Shown: positions 34,193 through 39,237, counted from the stretch's first letter. The stretch is 47,985 nucleotides of DNA from Trueperaceae bacterium (GCA_030147925.1 JASBUK010000068.1:1-47985), one strand, 5' to 3'. A program made the numbers and translations. Notes: generated from the sequence alone by a model not told the origin.

Positions 34193-34243
34193 GTGTTCTC
34201 ATATGATTCAGTCCTAAATTCACTAGAATTGCAAAGATTATGA
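34193..34243 (+). CDS. 16-codon leader ORF overlapping tolQ
   Basis: GTG at 34193, preceded by GAGGAG at 34177-34182, opens a 16-codon frame (MFSYDSVLNSLELQRL) whose TGA at 34241-34243 overlaps the tolQ ATG at 34240 as ATGA. The tolQ start has no Shine-Dalgarno of its own, so ribosomes finishing the leader would re-initiate on tolQ. No run of regulatory codons is obvious. If it is translated, it sets tolQ expression by coupling. Confidence 0.5.
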   Translation: MFSYDSVLNSLELQRL

Positions 34244-34902
34244 ATTTATTACTCACTGGTGGTCCGGTACTCGTTGCCATTTTGCTGGTTTCGCTCTATG
34301 CGCTTTACCTATTTTTCGAACGCTTGTTTAAGCTCTCCAAAGAGCGCATGGATGCCGATAAGTTGATGATTAAGGTCAATGCAGCGGTGCGTGAGCGCAA
34401 CTTAGAGTTGGCGCTGACTTCTTGCGAACAACACGGCGGCCCGGTAGCACGCGTCCTGAAGTCGGCCTTAAGCAGGCTGCCCTATGGTCGCTCGGCGGTG
34501 GAATCCGCCTTTCAGGAAGCCAGCTTAGAAGAAGAGCAGCGTCTCACCCGGGGTCTACGGGCGCTGGCCACCATTGCGCAGATTGCTCCCCTTTTAGGTC
34601 TTCTAGGAACGGTCACCGGCATGATCATTGCCTTTGCCGAGATTTCCCAGCAGGGTACTGGTGATCCGGCGGCTTTGGCCGATGGCATCGGTCAGGCGCT
34701 GGTCACTACGGCAGCCGGTCTTATCGTTGCCATTCCCACCCTTATTGGTCACAACTATCTTGCTAACCGCGTCGATCACATCCTCTTAGAAATTGACCGC
34801 CGCCGCGAAGAATTGATGGGTAACGTAGTGCAGGTAGTAGCGGCGCGGCGCGATGGCAAAGAGCGAGTAGAAGAGAATTATGCCCCAGCCAAGGCGTCTT
34901 AG
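34240..34902 (+). CDS. tolQ: TolQ/ExbB/MotA-family proton channel protein
   Basis: Inner-membrane subunit that, with ExbD/TolR, uses the proton motive force to drive a TonB- or TolA-like partner. Three membrane helices: about residues 6-27, then the pair in LATIAQIAPLLGLLGTVTGMII (about 108-130) and IGQALVTTAAGLIVAIPTLI (about 148-170), with the conserved Gly/Pro/Thr pattern. 220 residues. Its end overlaps exbD by 23 bases. Which of TolQ or ExbB it equals cannot be settled by sequence; no pal or tolB gene is present here. Confidence 0.9.
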   Translation: MNLLLTGGPVLVAILLVSLYALYLFFERLFKLSKERMDADKLMIKVNAAVRERNLELALTSCEQHGGPVARVLKSALSRLPYGRSAVESAFQEASLEEEQRLTRGLRALATIAQIAPLLGLLGTVTGMIIAFAEISQQGTGDPAALADGIGQALVTTAAGLIVAIPTLIGHNYLANRVDHILLEIDRRREELMGNVVQVVAARRDGKERVEENYAPAKAS

Positions 34903-35299
34903 CCGTTACCGCGCCAGGGGTCAGGGTCTGGCGCTTGATCTGACCCCAATGGTCGATGTGGTCTTTTTGCTCATCATCTTTTTTATGGTTTCGACCACCT
35001 TTATCACTCTAGAATCGGGTCTGCCGGTGGATTTACCCCAGGCTCAGACCAGTCAGCTTCAGGCTTCCGACTTGCCCACCGTGACCATCACCCGGGATCA
35101 GCAAATTTTCCTTTCCGGCGCCGCCATTGCCGAGGGTGACTTGGTCGTGGCCTTGCGCAGCGTTCTTAGTAGCAGTGCTTCGGGTACGGTGGTGCTGCGT
35201 GCCGATCAGACGGTTCCGCACGGAACAACAGTGAAGGTCATGGACTTGATCAAGCAGGCCGGAGCGCAGCGTATTGCTATTGCCACCGGTGGCGGCTAG
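34880..35299 (+). CDS. ExbD/TolR-family protein
   Basis: 139 residues: a basic N-terminus, one membrane helix with the essential aspartate (LDLTPMVDVVFLLIIFFMV, about residues 20-38) and a periplasmic domain (PTVTITRDQQIFLSG, VVLRADQTVPHGTTVKVMDL). It partners the TolQ-like channel. ATG start inside the end of tolQ, with AGAAGAG upstream. It is followed after 29 bp by the TonB-like gene. Confidence 0.92.
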   Translation: MPQPRRLSRYRARGQGLALDLTPMVDVVFLLIIFFMVSTTFITLESGLPVDLPQAQTSQLQASDLPTVTITRDQQIFLSGAAIAEGDLVVALRSVLSSSASGTVVLRADQTVPHGTTVKVMDLIKQAGAQRIAIATGGG

Positions 35300-35328
35300 G
35301 CCGGGCGCGGCAGCAAAAGGATAACACT

Positions 35329-37206
35329 GTGATCTCGAAGCTTGACCTCTGGCAGGATAAGGACAAACGGCGTGCGCTGTTGCTTTCTCTTGTTGTCCAC
35401 TTGAGCAGCTTGCTGCTGCTGGCCTGGTTTCTCACTTCGCCCAAGCCTGCTCCCAAAGAAACTTTTATTGTCATTGACATAGGCACGCCTGCTTTAGCGG
35501 AAGTCGCTGTCGAGGCGCCGGCGGCGGCAGAGCCTGCGCCACAAGCGGCTACGCCTCAGGTAGCCGCCGTTGAAACCGGTGAACCCCAAAACCCCGAGGG
35601 TGTAGCTAACACGCCCAGCCAGATTCCAGAAGCACCCCCCGCCGTGGCGCAAACTCCAGAACCCCCACAGCCCCAGATAGCTGCCCCAGTTGCCGTGCCG
35701 ACGCCACAAGTGCGCGTCCCCGAGGCAGCTGCCGCAGCATCGGCAGTGAACTTGCCAAGCACGGAAGCGCCAACAAGCAGTGTGCTACCCGAAATTGACG
35801 AGGTAGTGCTCGAGCCCAAACCGTTAGCCCAGGCTATCCGTATTCCTACCCCAAGCGTCTCAACCGAGGTTCCCCAGGCGCGTATTATCACCGCCACGCC
35901 AAATGTCCAGCTTGCTCCTGTGCAGAGCATTCCCCAGCCAAGTGTGCAGGCCTCTGTGGCGATTCCCCAGCCTATTGCACAACCGCAGCCACAGCTAGCC
36001 GTGGCCACCCCACAAAACTTGCCGCAACCACAGGCCCAGGTCACCGTGGCCACAGCCCGCCCACTGGACATTACGCCAAATGTCAACGTCAGCACGGCGC
36101 AGACCATCCCGGCACCGCAAATCGCCGTGGCGGTTGCACAACCGCAGCCACAAGCAGAACCCAACCCCGTCTCGGCAGGTGACGCCGAAGCCAGCACGAC
36201 CAGCGCCGTAGCCAGCCCTCAGCAAACGAATCGCCCGGCTGGTGCCAATGCCGATCAAGCCGGACAGACAAGCGCTCAGGAAGGGGCCAGTACCACCGCT
36301 ACAGGCGCGGCAGCCAGCCCGGAAGGTGCAGAAGTCGCCAGCGGTGCGCCCGCCGGGCAGTCGTCAAGCCCCTATCGCGACGAACGCAATCGTCCAATTG
36401 CCGTGCTGCTGGACAATGTCAGTGGTTATCCCCAAACCGGTCTTTTAGAAGCTTCGGCCATTTATGAAATGCCCGTCGAAGGTGGACTTACCCGCCTGAT
36501 GACGATTTATGACCGCATCGACCCCAGCGCGGTTGGTCCAGTGCGCAGCGCCAGAGATTATTTTCTTGAGGCCGCCCGCAATCTAAACGGCATCCTCGTT
36601 CATGACGGCGGCTCTCCTTCGGCCATCGCCGCTATAGAACGGGGCGAAGCCACTACCCTAAATGCCTTTAACCGTGGTGACCTGTTCTCGCGAGACAACA
36701 GCCGCAATGCGCCTTATAATCTCTATTCCAGTGGTAACGCTCTGCGTCAGGCCATCAATCGCCTGAATCTCAATTTCAACCGGGTCATTCGCTCTCAGGT
36801 TTATCGCCCCGCCGAAGAACTAAGCAATACCAATCGGCTGGAAGTGGCGTACTCGGGCAGTTATAACAGCGGGTTTCGCTATATTTCGGAAGTAAATCTT
36901 TATCGCTGGCAACGCCAGGGTCAAGATGCTTCGGACGCTTATGGTGAGGCGGTGATGGTCGATGCGGTGGTGGTAGCCGCTATTAGTGAGGCTCGAGCCA
37001 TCCCCGATGACCCTGAGGGCAGATTGTATATTCCGCTACGTGGCGGCGAAGCTACACTCTATTTGCGTGGCAAGATTATCCCAGGTCGCTGGTCACCAGA
37101 TAATGGCTTTAGCTTTATCAGCAATGAGGGCATAGCCATTGACCTGCGTCCCTTTAAATACTGGGTCATGTTTGCACCACCCTGGTCAACTGTGCAAGTG
37201 CAGTAA
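35329..37206 (+). CDS. TonB-like N-terminus fused to a DUF3048 domain
   Basis: 625 residues in three parts. (1) Cytoplasmic start and one membrane helix (about 16-36, LLLSLVVHLSSLLLLAWFL). Ser20 and His24 are four apart and Leu31 seven further, matching Ser16, His20 and Leu27 of the TonB/TolA SHLS motif. (2) A spacer of about 300 residues rich in Pro, Ala, Gln and Val, with repeated PQPQ- and PNVQ-type units. (3) A DUF3048 (YerB-like) domain from about residue 345: IAVLLDNVSGYPQTGL, YEMPVEGGLTRLMTIYDR, GPVRSARDYFLEAA, LVHDGGSPSA, NAPYNLYSS, and a C-terminal half ending PFKYWVMF. DUF3048 is known from Firmicutes lipoproteins of unknown function. Position after TolQ/ExbD fits a proton-driven transducer reaching across the envelope; that is inference. 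GTG start, AAGGAT upstream. Confidence 0.85.
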   Translation: MISKLDLWQDKDKRRALLLSLVVHLSSLLLLAWFLTSPKPAPKETFIVIDIGTPALAEVAVEAPAAAEPAPQAATPQVAAVETGEPQNPEGVANTPSQIPEAPPAVAQTPEPPQPQIAAPVAVPTPQVRVPEAAAAASAVNLPSTEAPTSSVLPEIDEVVLEPKPLAQAIRIPTPSVSTEVPQARIITATPNVQLAPVQSIPQPSVQASVAIPQPIAQPQPQLAVATPQNLPQPQAQVTVATARPLDITPNVNVSTAQTIPAPQIAVAVAQPQPQAEPNPVSAGDAEASTTSAVASPQQTNRPAGANADQAGQTSAQEGASTTATGAAASPEGAEVASGAPAGQSSSPYRDERNRPIAVLLDNVSGYPQTGLLEASAIYEMPVEGGLTRLMTIYDRIDPSAVGPVRSARDYFLEAARNLNGILVHDGGSPSAIAAIERGEATTLNAFNRGDLFSRDNSRNAPYNLYSSGNALRQAINRLNLNFNRVIRSQVYRPAEELSNTNRLEVAYSGSYNSGFRYISEVNLYRWQRQGQDASDAYGEAVMVDAVVVAAISEARAIPDDPEGRLYIPLRGGEATLYLRGKIIPGRWSPDNGFSFISNEGIAIDLRPFKYWVMFAPPWSTVQVQ

Positions 37207-37909: not shown

Positions 37910-38132
37910 AGTTCTCCTTAACTTGGCCTCCGAAAGTGGCTCTGCCTATAAACCCGTAGCTGCAAATCTGGGTTAAACGTGTCATTTTATACGAAATTGC
38001 TTTGTCAATGTCATGAATGCGGTTGCATAGGTTTATATCCTTGCTGCTGGCTTAAATTGGGCAAGCAACTGTTATGGTGATACCAGCTTGTTTGCGCTTG
38101 CTTTGGCCGCGCTATGGCAATGTGGAGGTTAT

Positions 38133-38522
38133 ATGGTTTTTGCTGTCATGATCGGCGGCGCACTGGGAGCCCTGAGCCGGTATGCGGTAACGCTCTGGTT
38201 GCAAGGCTGGCTGACTGTTACCCCTTACAGTTCGTTTCCTTTGGCCACACTCAGTGTCAATGTCTTAGGGTCGTTTTTACTCGGTTTCTTGAGCGAACTT
38301 GGCTTAGAAGGGCTGGTATCCCCTACGACCAGGGTCGCTATAGGCACGGGTTTTATCGGTGCGCTAACCACTTTTTCCACCTTCGAGCTCGACAGTGAAT
38401 TACTCTTGCGTGAAGGCCAGTGGTTACAAGCTTTTATCTATGTATTCGGCAATCTTTTTTTGGGTTTTATAGCGGTCATGCTGGGGCGTTTTTTGGCTAC
38501 CCGCTTAGGAGGTCGCAGGTGA
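38133..38522 (+). CDS. crcB: CrcB/Fluc-type fluoride exporter
   Basis: Small fluoride channel working as an antiparallel dimer. 129 residues with four membrane helices. GGALGALSRYAVTLWL, the conserved LSVNVLGSFLLGFL, and GTGFIGALTTFSTFELDSELLL contain the family Asn and TTFSTF (Phe-box and Thr) features. Start set at ATG 38133, four bases after GTGGAGGTT; the frame runs upstream to 38088 but gives unrelated sequence. Its stop overlaps the next start (GTGA). A single gene suggests a homodimer. Confidence 0.92.
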   Translation: MVFAVMIGGALGALSRYAVTLWLQGWLTVTPYSSFPLATLSVNVLGSFLLGFLSELGLEGLVSPTTRVAIGTGFIGALTTFSTFELDSELLLREGQWLQAFIYVFGNLFLGFIAVMLGRFLATRLGGRR

Positions 38523-38878
38523 GTGTAGAGATAGAATTTGGCGAAATTGTTTCCGGGGAAATGCTGCGTATTTATCTGGGCGAGCGCGATCACACGGGTA
38601 CAAAAAGCAGTTATCAGGCGGTGGTTGAAGCGGCGCGTAAAGCCGGTTTGGCCGGTGCCACGGTACTGCGTGGCAGTTTGGGTTACGGCGCAAATTCGAT
38701 TATTTCCAAGCGGGGATTTTGGAGCCTGTCCGAAGATTTGCCCCTGGTGATTGAAATTGTTGATAGCGCCGCAAAAATTGCTGAGTTTTTGCCGCTATTA
38801 GAAAAGCTTCTTAGCGGCGGTGGACTCATCACCCTGGAAAAAGTGCAGATTATTCGCTATGCCGGGGATAAAACGTGA
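38519..38878 (+). CDS. DUF190 family protein, first of two
   Basis: 119 residues, PII-like fold family often found beside crcB. Pattern: LRIYLGERDHTGTKSSYQAV, then VEAARKAGLAGATVLRGSLGYG and LPLVIEIVDSAAKIAEFLPLL. The GTG start at 38519 has AGGAGG six bases upstream and overlaps the crcB stop. Ligand unknown; it may bind a small molecule or nucleotide to gate or signal fluoride stress (inference from fold and context). Confidence 0.88.
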   Translation: MSVEIEFGEIVSGEMLRIYLGERDHTGTKSSYQAVVEAARKAGLAGATVLRGSLGYGANSIISKRGFWSLSEDLPLVIEIVDSAAKIAEFLPLLEKLLSGGGLITLEKVQIIRYAGDKT

Positions 38879-39237
38879 ACATCCTAAGACGGGCCAACAT
38901 AGACGAGGCCAGCTTGCTGCGTGTCTATACTTTGGCCGGTGATCGTAGCGGCAAGAAAAACCTGGCTGAGGCCATTGTCGAGGCTGCCAGGCACGAAGGT
39001 TTAAGCGGCGCGACTGTTTTGCGCGGCATCACCGGTTTTGGCAGGCATGGTTATGATCCGCTGCTGTTAATCGAACAACTAGCTCTGCAACGCCAGCCGC
39101 TCATTGTCGAGATAATTGACAGTCCTGATAAGCTTAAAAGTTTTTTGCCTATCCTGTTTGCGCTCAATCAGGCCAAGCGATTGGTAACGCTCGAGCCCAT
39201 CCGCATCCACTCTTACCACGCTGGCAACTTAGCTTAA
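38875..39237 (+). CDS. DUF190 family protein, second of two
   Basis: 120 residues, clearly related to the previous gene: LLRVYTLAGDRSGKKNLAEA, IVEAARHEGLSGATVLRGITGFG, QPLIVEIIDSPDKLKSFLPIL. It overlaps its neighbour as GTGA, so crcB and both DUF190 genes are one coupled operon. It probably arose by duplication and may form a heteromer with the first. Its stop overlaps the pdxT stop on the other strand by four bases (TTAA). Confidence 0.88.
   Translation: MNILRRANIDEASLLRVYTLAGDRSGKKNLAEAIVEAARHEGLSGATVLRGITGFGRHGYDPLLLIEQLALQRQPLIVEIIDSPDKLKSFLPILFALNQAKRLVTLEPIRIHSYHAGNLA

Follow-up and report, generated by a model that had tools for sequence, protein, structure and literature searches.

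We analysed a 47,985-nucleotide contig (JASBUK010000068.1:1-47985, hereafter the window) from the 2.98-Mb genome of a Trueperaceae bacterium (GCA_030147925.1), in which exbB, exbD and a third gene form a same-strand cluster. The third protein joins an inner-membrane anchor like that of TonB and TolA to a C-terminal DUF3048 domain. By homology with TonB and TolA, it is very likely coupled to the ExbB/ExbD motor. We consider it probable that the three proteins make up a trans-envelope force transducer, similar in kind to the Ton and Tol systems, in which DUF3048 is the output and may pull on the connection between the wall and the outer membrane. The first-pass annotation of this DNA had proposed that the proton gradient drives an envelope device whose output domain is new. 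This proposal gains from the complete linkage of the genes in Deinococcota, from their recurrence in Atribacterota, another phylum with two membranes, from the conserved anchor and D-box-like strand, and from the near absence of TonB receptors and TonB C-termini.

Motor, anchor and output domain in the window

All features lie on the plus strand. Both families of a proton motor are encoded by adjacent, overlapping genes: an ExbB/TolQ-type subunit of 220 residues (34240..34902; PF01618, E=2.5e-33) and an ExbD/TolR-type subunit of 139 residues (34880..35299; PF02472, E=1.5e-31). These matches, like those to the two DUF3048 models below, exceed the Pfam cut-offs. ExbB carries its pore threonines in LGTVTGMI and LVTTAAGL, and ExbD its transmembrane aspartate in LTPMVDVVF; these canonical motor residues are conserved across relatives. 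The ExbB segments LLGLLGTVxGMI and ALxTTAxGL are kept in both Deinococcota and Atribacterota, and the proline of the third transmembrane helix occurs in all motors except those of Deinococcota with another output. Among NCBIfam models the best scores were those for TolQ (92.8 bits, cut-off 221) and TolR (73.4 bits, cut-off 127.3), both below cut-off. As predicted from sequence, the motor is a member of the ExbB/TolQ-ExbD/TolR superfamily and not the named equivalog TolQ, TolR, ExbB or ExbD. In the source genome the ExbB family, the ExbD family and DUF3048 are each represented by a single gene, and all three genes belong to this cluster; thus there is no other obvious partner for the motor.

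The third gene (35329..37206) is a single uninterrupted frame with a GTG start and its own ribosome-binding site, a Shine-Dalgarno-like AAAAGGA (35315..35321) 7 nucleotides upstream of GTG 35329. Its 625-residue product, a predicted TonB/TolA-like force transducer with a C-terminal DUF3048, opens with an inner-membrane anchor helix (residues 16-35, ALLLSLVVHLSSLLLLAWFL; 35374..35433). The anchor claimed in the first-pass annotation, SxxxH with a leucine at +7, is present as S20, H24 and L31; in the full motif Ser-X3-His-X6-Leu-X3-Ser the last serine is replaced by Leu35. The helix leads into the Pro-rich arm, cysteine is absent from the N-terminus, and there is no lipobox signal peptide.

Between helix and arm we found an additional feature, the strand IVIDIGT (residues 47-53; 35467..35487), followed by Pro54. 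By published definition (PMC10907165) it resembles the D-box or motor box: in TonB of E. coli, residues 43-54 (QPISVTMVTPAD) make up the D-box peptide, which two copies of ExbD hold as a strand (PMC10907165). The first hydrophobic residue stands at His+23 here, compared with His20+25 (I45) in TonB (PMC10907165). Of 36 relatives, 32 show this pattern at the corresponding position, whereas 500 shuffles of the same segments gave 3.0 on average and never more than 9; among sequence windows drawn from these proteins' spacers, 1.8% contain it. On these grounds we regard the strand that follows the helix as a putative D-box. The spacer itself (35494..36363) was correctly recognized from the outset as long and rich in Pro, Gln and Ala. 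It is a low-complexity stretch of about 290 Pro/Ala/Gln/Val-rich residues with recurring PxVxV units, weak conservation and no Pfam match.

The protein ends, as had been claimed, in a complete DUF3048. The N-terminal domain (residues 350-480; 36376..36768; PF11258, E=5e-36) and the C-terminal domain (residues 505-613; 36841..37167; PF17479, E=3e-9) both exceed the gathering score. Fold modelling, which the first-pass annotation had suggested, gave an AlphaFold2 model of the whole domain, built with 32 relatives, that has a mean pLDDT of 94.9 and a pTM of 0.92. Foldseek matched it to one PDB entry, YerB (2PSB; E=1.2e-24, TM 0.80, 27% identity), in agreement with phmmer (4.5e-26); nothing else in the PDB fell below 0.001, and neither a vWA nor an enzyme fold was detected. 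Folds of NafY and dinitrogenase-cofactor proteins, at E values of about 0.3-1.2, were discarded as chance matches. Invariant residues include D24, N25, E42, E46, R51, R68, R71, Y73, H87, G89 and G90 (domain numbering, with the domain of the window protein taken to start at 36343), and the many polar residues among them suggest a specific ligand site. The titles and abstracts of papers that mention DUF3048 or YerB give no role for either.

In line with the first-pass annotation, no TonB receptor, TolB or Pal turned up when the other main open reading frames of the window were scanned with Pfam; for TolB and Pal the rest of the genome was not searched. The coordinates given there hold apart from the first codon: exbB begins at ATG 34240 and not at GTG 34193, which starts a separate 16-codon leader open reading frame (34193-34243). 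The leader has a good Shine-Dalgarno sequence (GAGGAGAAACAAGATC-GTG), and its stop overlaps the exbB start as ATGA. No clear ribosome-binding site for the exbB ATG itself was seen in the window. The relatives lack such a leader, and a GGAG-type site often lies upstream of their exbB ATG. Further downstream (38088-39237) we noted, by eye, a putative CrcB-like fluoride channel followed by two tandem DUF190-like genes.

Distribution of the motor and its outputs

DUF3048 is present in 43 of 111 Deinococcota genomes, all belonging to family f1 (the Trueperaceae, which include the source genome) or to family f4 (Marinithermus-like). A search for the architecture, as proposed in the first-pass annotation, recovered the ExbB-ExbD-DUF3048 triad intact, with ExbD always upstream, in 36 of 36 loci with upstream room; four further loci end at a contig end. 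Reading of the neighbourhoods found no other gene linked to the triad across Deinococcota families. The proposal had been staked on linkage to TolQ/ExbD and on conservation of SxxxH. Linkage is near-absolute among relatives, and SxxxH is fixed in Trueperaceae (29 of 29 distinct anchors, thus 29 of the 35 unique Deinococcota anchors with DUF3048), but the six f4 anchors have Ala/Ser and then Thr/Ser in place of His, and those of Atribacterota read SxxxN (29/29).

In cryo-electron microscopy structures of Ton and Tol complexes, the anchor Ser and His face Ser34/Trp38 of ExbB or Ser28/Trp32 of TolQ (PMC12215075). The ExbB position that matches TolQ Ser28, by hand alignment of the first helix (the Ser ten residues before Arg), is occupied by Ser in each of the 34 Trueperaceae sequences and by Thr in 11 of 12 f4 sequences; the neighbouring Trp is not conserved. 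Such a joint change in anchor and ExbB would be expected from direct contact, though it may reflect a single evolutionary event.

The other Deinococcota tell a different story about the output. In families f2, f3 and f5 (the last probably Thermaceae) exbD is followed by a gene whose product retains the anchor (His in 8/8) and the long spacer, and ends, where the contig is long enough, in a 110-residue C-terminal domain in which a WP and two Cys are conserved. We found this domain in 14 genomes, all of which lack DUF3048, and the D-box pattern is far less clear in these proteins (1/8). Its consensus (L245-L256) is CAVVVDARGL...VWPD...CQVVFLR. It matched nothing above Pfam cut-offs, and a PDB search with its AlphaFold model (pLDDT 88.7) gave nothing at E<1; a relationship to LPP20 was considered and dropped for want of support. 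When ExbB and ExbD were concatenated for a tree, the Deinococcota motors grouped together whichever output they carry (bootstrap 100), separate from the motors of Atribacterota and Halanaerobiales. Read most simply, the phylum kept its motor and swapped the output. The suggestion that the DUF3048 device acts in Deinococcota generally is therefore not upheld.

Standard outputs are excluded almost throughout. TonB_C (PF03544) matches neither the third protein nor anything else in the source genome, and occurs in 1 of 111 Deinococcota genomes; the receptor plug is absent from the source genome and present in 2 of 111. Thus no standard output remains for the motor. The one genome with a TonB C-terminus is also one of the two with a plug receptor (G076; C176, C302), and we suspect foreign contigs in this metagenome-assembled genome.

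To place these proteins more widely, 85,000 genomes were scanned for DUF3048, which yielded at least 589 relatives, the best 80 of which were read. Among these 80, the order ExbB-ExbD-anchor-DUF3048 recurs in all five Atribacteria loci; ExbB or ExbD near DUF3048 was seen in no lineage other than Deinococcota and Atribacteria, and many of the proteins without a motor have a lipobox or a short transmembrane N-terminus. The view that DUF3048 belongs mainly to Firmicutes proved too narrow, since the matches listed also include Patescibacteria, Chloroflexota and Atribacterota. Eight sampled DUF3048 genomes from elsewhere (Chloroflexota, Bacillus and others) encode no ExbD. Three Halanaerobiales genomes with DUF3048 do have ExbD; in the two loci read, it lies elsewhere in the genome and is followed by an ordinary TonB-like gene. 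Tandem pairs of DUF3048 genes occur in Patescibacteria and related metagenome-assembled genomes (L130, L133, L135, L158, L166, L174).

DUF3048 is found in 46 of 50 Atribacterota genomes. ExbD is immediately upstream in 26 of the 30 loci read, and two of the remaining four start near a contig start. A D-box-like strand (such as IVVELLEIP) stands at about +25 in 23 of 29 of these proteins, and an exported TPR protein of about 1,200 residues is encoded upstream of exbB in all five sufficiently long loci (L125:606-4274, L156, L161, L192, L152). A second DUF3048 frame, shorter at about 315 residues, lies elsewhere in about a dozen of these genomes. The plug receptor is found in 13 of 50 genomes and goes undetected in most of those with DUF3048. 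Where it shares a contig with a separate ExbB/ExbD pair (G113, G115), that pair falls on its own branch of the motor tree. The scarcity of plug receptors and the existence of a separate motor on contigs with a receptor indicate that nutrient receptors are mostly not what the DUF3048 motor serves.

In the domain tree, DUF3048 forms a Deinococcota group (support 99) and an Atribacterota group (100) that are not sisters, and a single origin of motor-anchored DUF3048 is modestly disfavoured (approximately unbiased test, p=0.032) on a weak backbone. Because the anchors also differ and the motors lie on separate branches, two independent couplings appear more likely than one, weak as the backbone of the tree is. 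One Trueperaceae genome (G080, C109) has, in addition to its normal triad, a Trypsin_2 (trypsin-like) domain fused to DUF3048 (L070:3089-5038), and the closest relative of the DUF3048 half is the triad copy of the same genome.

Proposed mechanism and rival explanations

We envisage a pentameric ExbB ring and an ExbD dimer powered by the proton gradient. The third protein would dock to this motor through its N-terminal helix (Ser/His) and through the D-box strand, which would be caught by periplasmic ExbD. The long Pro-rich arm would span the periplasm, with DUF3048 at its end in place of the TonB or TolA C-terminal domain. There DUF3048 may hold on to a component of the wall or of its surface, whether peptidoglycan, a secondary wall polymer or a protein bound to the wall. 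Motor cycles would then pull on or release the connection between wall and outer membrane, much as Tol does via TolB-Pal. That the ligand lies on the wall side, and that the role is one of tethering or constriction, we propose only tentatively. As DUF3048 also occurs, lipoprotein- or transmembrane-anchored, in monoderms without ExbD, its ligand should be one that monoderms share; most simply, though the step is a weaker one, this would be the wall or a wall-bound partner. The SLH tether domains of 107 of 111 Deinococcota genomes and the TPR protein that heads the Atribacterota operon also speak for the wall.

Several points weigh against this reading. A ligand shared with monoderms could equally be a membrane or secreted protein, and the trypsin-DUF3048 fusion fits a protein-binding role just as well. 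SxxxH is not retained in the anchors of the Marinithermus-like genomes (A/SxxxT/S) and of Atribacterota (SxxxN). DUF3048 is dispensable, since Deinococcota other than f1 and f4 have another domain as output. The fold search of the modelled domain yielded YerB and no relative of known function.

Alternatively, the protein could be a TonB equivalent for uptake, with DUF3048 opening a non-plug outer-membrane channel, such as an SLH porin, by motor force. Its Pro-rich arm and D-box do resemble those of TonB, and some Atribacterota with the DUF3048 motor also have a plug receptor (detected in 13 of 50 genomes), including a genome (G111) in which only one ExbD was found. We nevertheless think this unlikely, as DUF3048 is present in monoderms, which have no outer-membrane channel, most Atribacterota with DUF3048 show no plug receptor, and in G113 and G115 a separate ExbB/ExbD pair shares the contig of the receptor. 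Instead, DUF3048 might act on wall polymers as an enzyme or a regulator, with the motor arm merely positioning or switching it. Arguing for this, its invariant polar residues (D24, N25, E42, E46, R51, R68, R71, H87 and the GG pair) exceed the needs of a passive grip, and a LysM-M23 peptidase gene lies near the cluster, on the opposite strand, in 22 loci, all of them Trueperaceae. Counter to this, Foldseek detected no enzyme fold and the titles and abstracts of the papers found on YerB show no activity; an enzymatic or regulatory role seems improbable to us.

It is hard to believe that an ordinary membrane-anchored DUF3048 protein sits in the operon by chance while the motor serves something else. 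The absence of the SxxxH His from Marinithermus-like and Atribacterota anchors would fit such an accident, but the linkage to the motor holds in two phyla, the D-box count (32/36) far exceeds the 3.0 obtained by shuffling, the same anchor carries alternative output domains in other Deinococcota, and the genome has no other candidate transducer bearing TonB_C.

Significance and comparison with known systems

How diderm Terrabacteria that lack Pal coordinate the outer membrane with the wall is an open question, for which the DUF3048 motor is a candidate: single-copy, conserved, motor-driven, and present in Truepera-like bacteria and in nearly all Atribacterota. Pal is reported to be restricted to Gracilicutes, and in diderm Terrabacteria the outer membrane is held to be tethered by way of SLH/OmpM proteins (PMC10628300). 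The presence of SLH domains in 107 of 111 Deinococcota genomes is consistent with this published view. It is possible, though doubtful, that we are looking at the Tol-Pal counterpart of these bacteria. If so, at least two Pal-less phyla would independently have joined a motor to a wall-associated DUF3048 that moves or loads the tethers between outer membrane and wall during growth and division, and part of the Deinococcota would later have swapped the output. DUF3048, which extends from Bacillus to Patescibacteria with no assigned role, thereby gains a testable mechanical context, and the chassis of motor and anchor is seen to be modular, since a single phylum fits it with at least two unrelated outputs.

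With the Ton system the cluster shares the motor families, the anchor Ser and His, a D-box-like strand past the helix and a Pro-rich arm. It differs in that the TonB C-terminal domain is missing, the genome lacks a plug receptor, and the transducer gene always adjoins the motor genes. Tol-Pal is similar in its operon of motor and transducer, and the best scores of our subunits, below cut-off as they are, were against TolQ and TolR. Here, however, the TolA C-terminus is missing, and neither TolB nor Pal is among the main open reading frames of the window. YerB-type proteins (B. subtilis YerB, 2PSB) share the two-part domain and its fold (TM 0.80, 27% identity), but are lipoproteins or transmembrane-anchored proteins of monoderms and have no motor.

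The closest parallel is with the TonB/TolA-like transducers with a vWA output described by Williams-Jones et al. 2025, who foresaw further ones (PMC12204202). These are known from Proteobacteria, Planctomycetes, Verrucomicrobia, Bacteroidetes and Rhodothermaota (PMC12204202); neither Deinococcota nor DUF3048 is named in the text of that paper, and we found no earlier report of a motor-linked DUF3048 transducer in the open-licence literature. The two have in common an anchor (SHLS in the vWA proteins), a motor box, a disordered linker, linkage to a motor and a C-terminal domain that is neither that of TonB nor that of TolA (PMC12204202). TPR proteins accompany both Tol-Pal and the vWA transducers (PMC12204202), whose operons thus resemble those of Atribacterota. 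The output there is vWA, whereas here only DUF3048 domains were matched. The DUF3048 transducer is another class of this kind, beside the TonB, TolA and vWA transducers.

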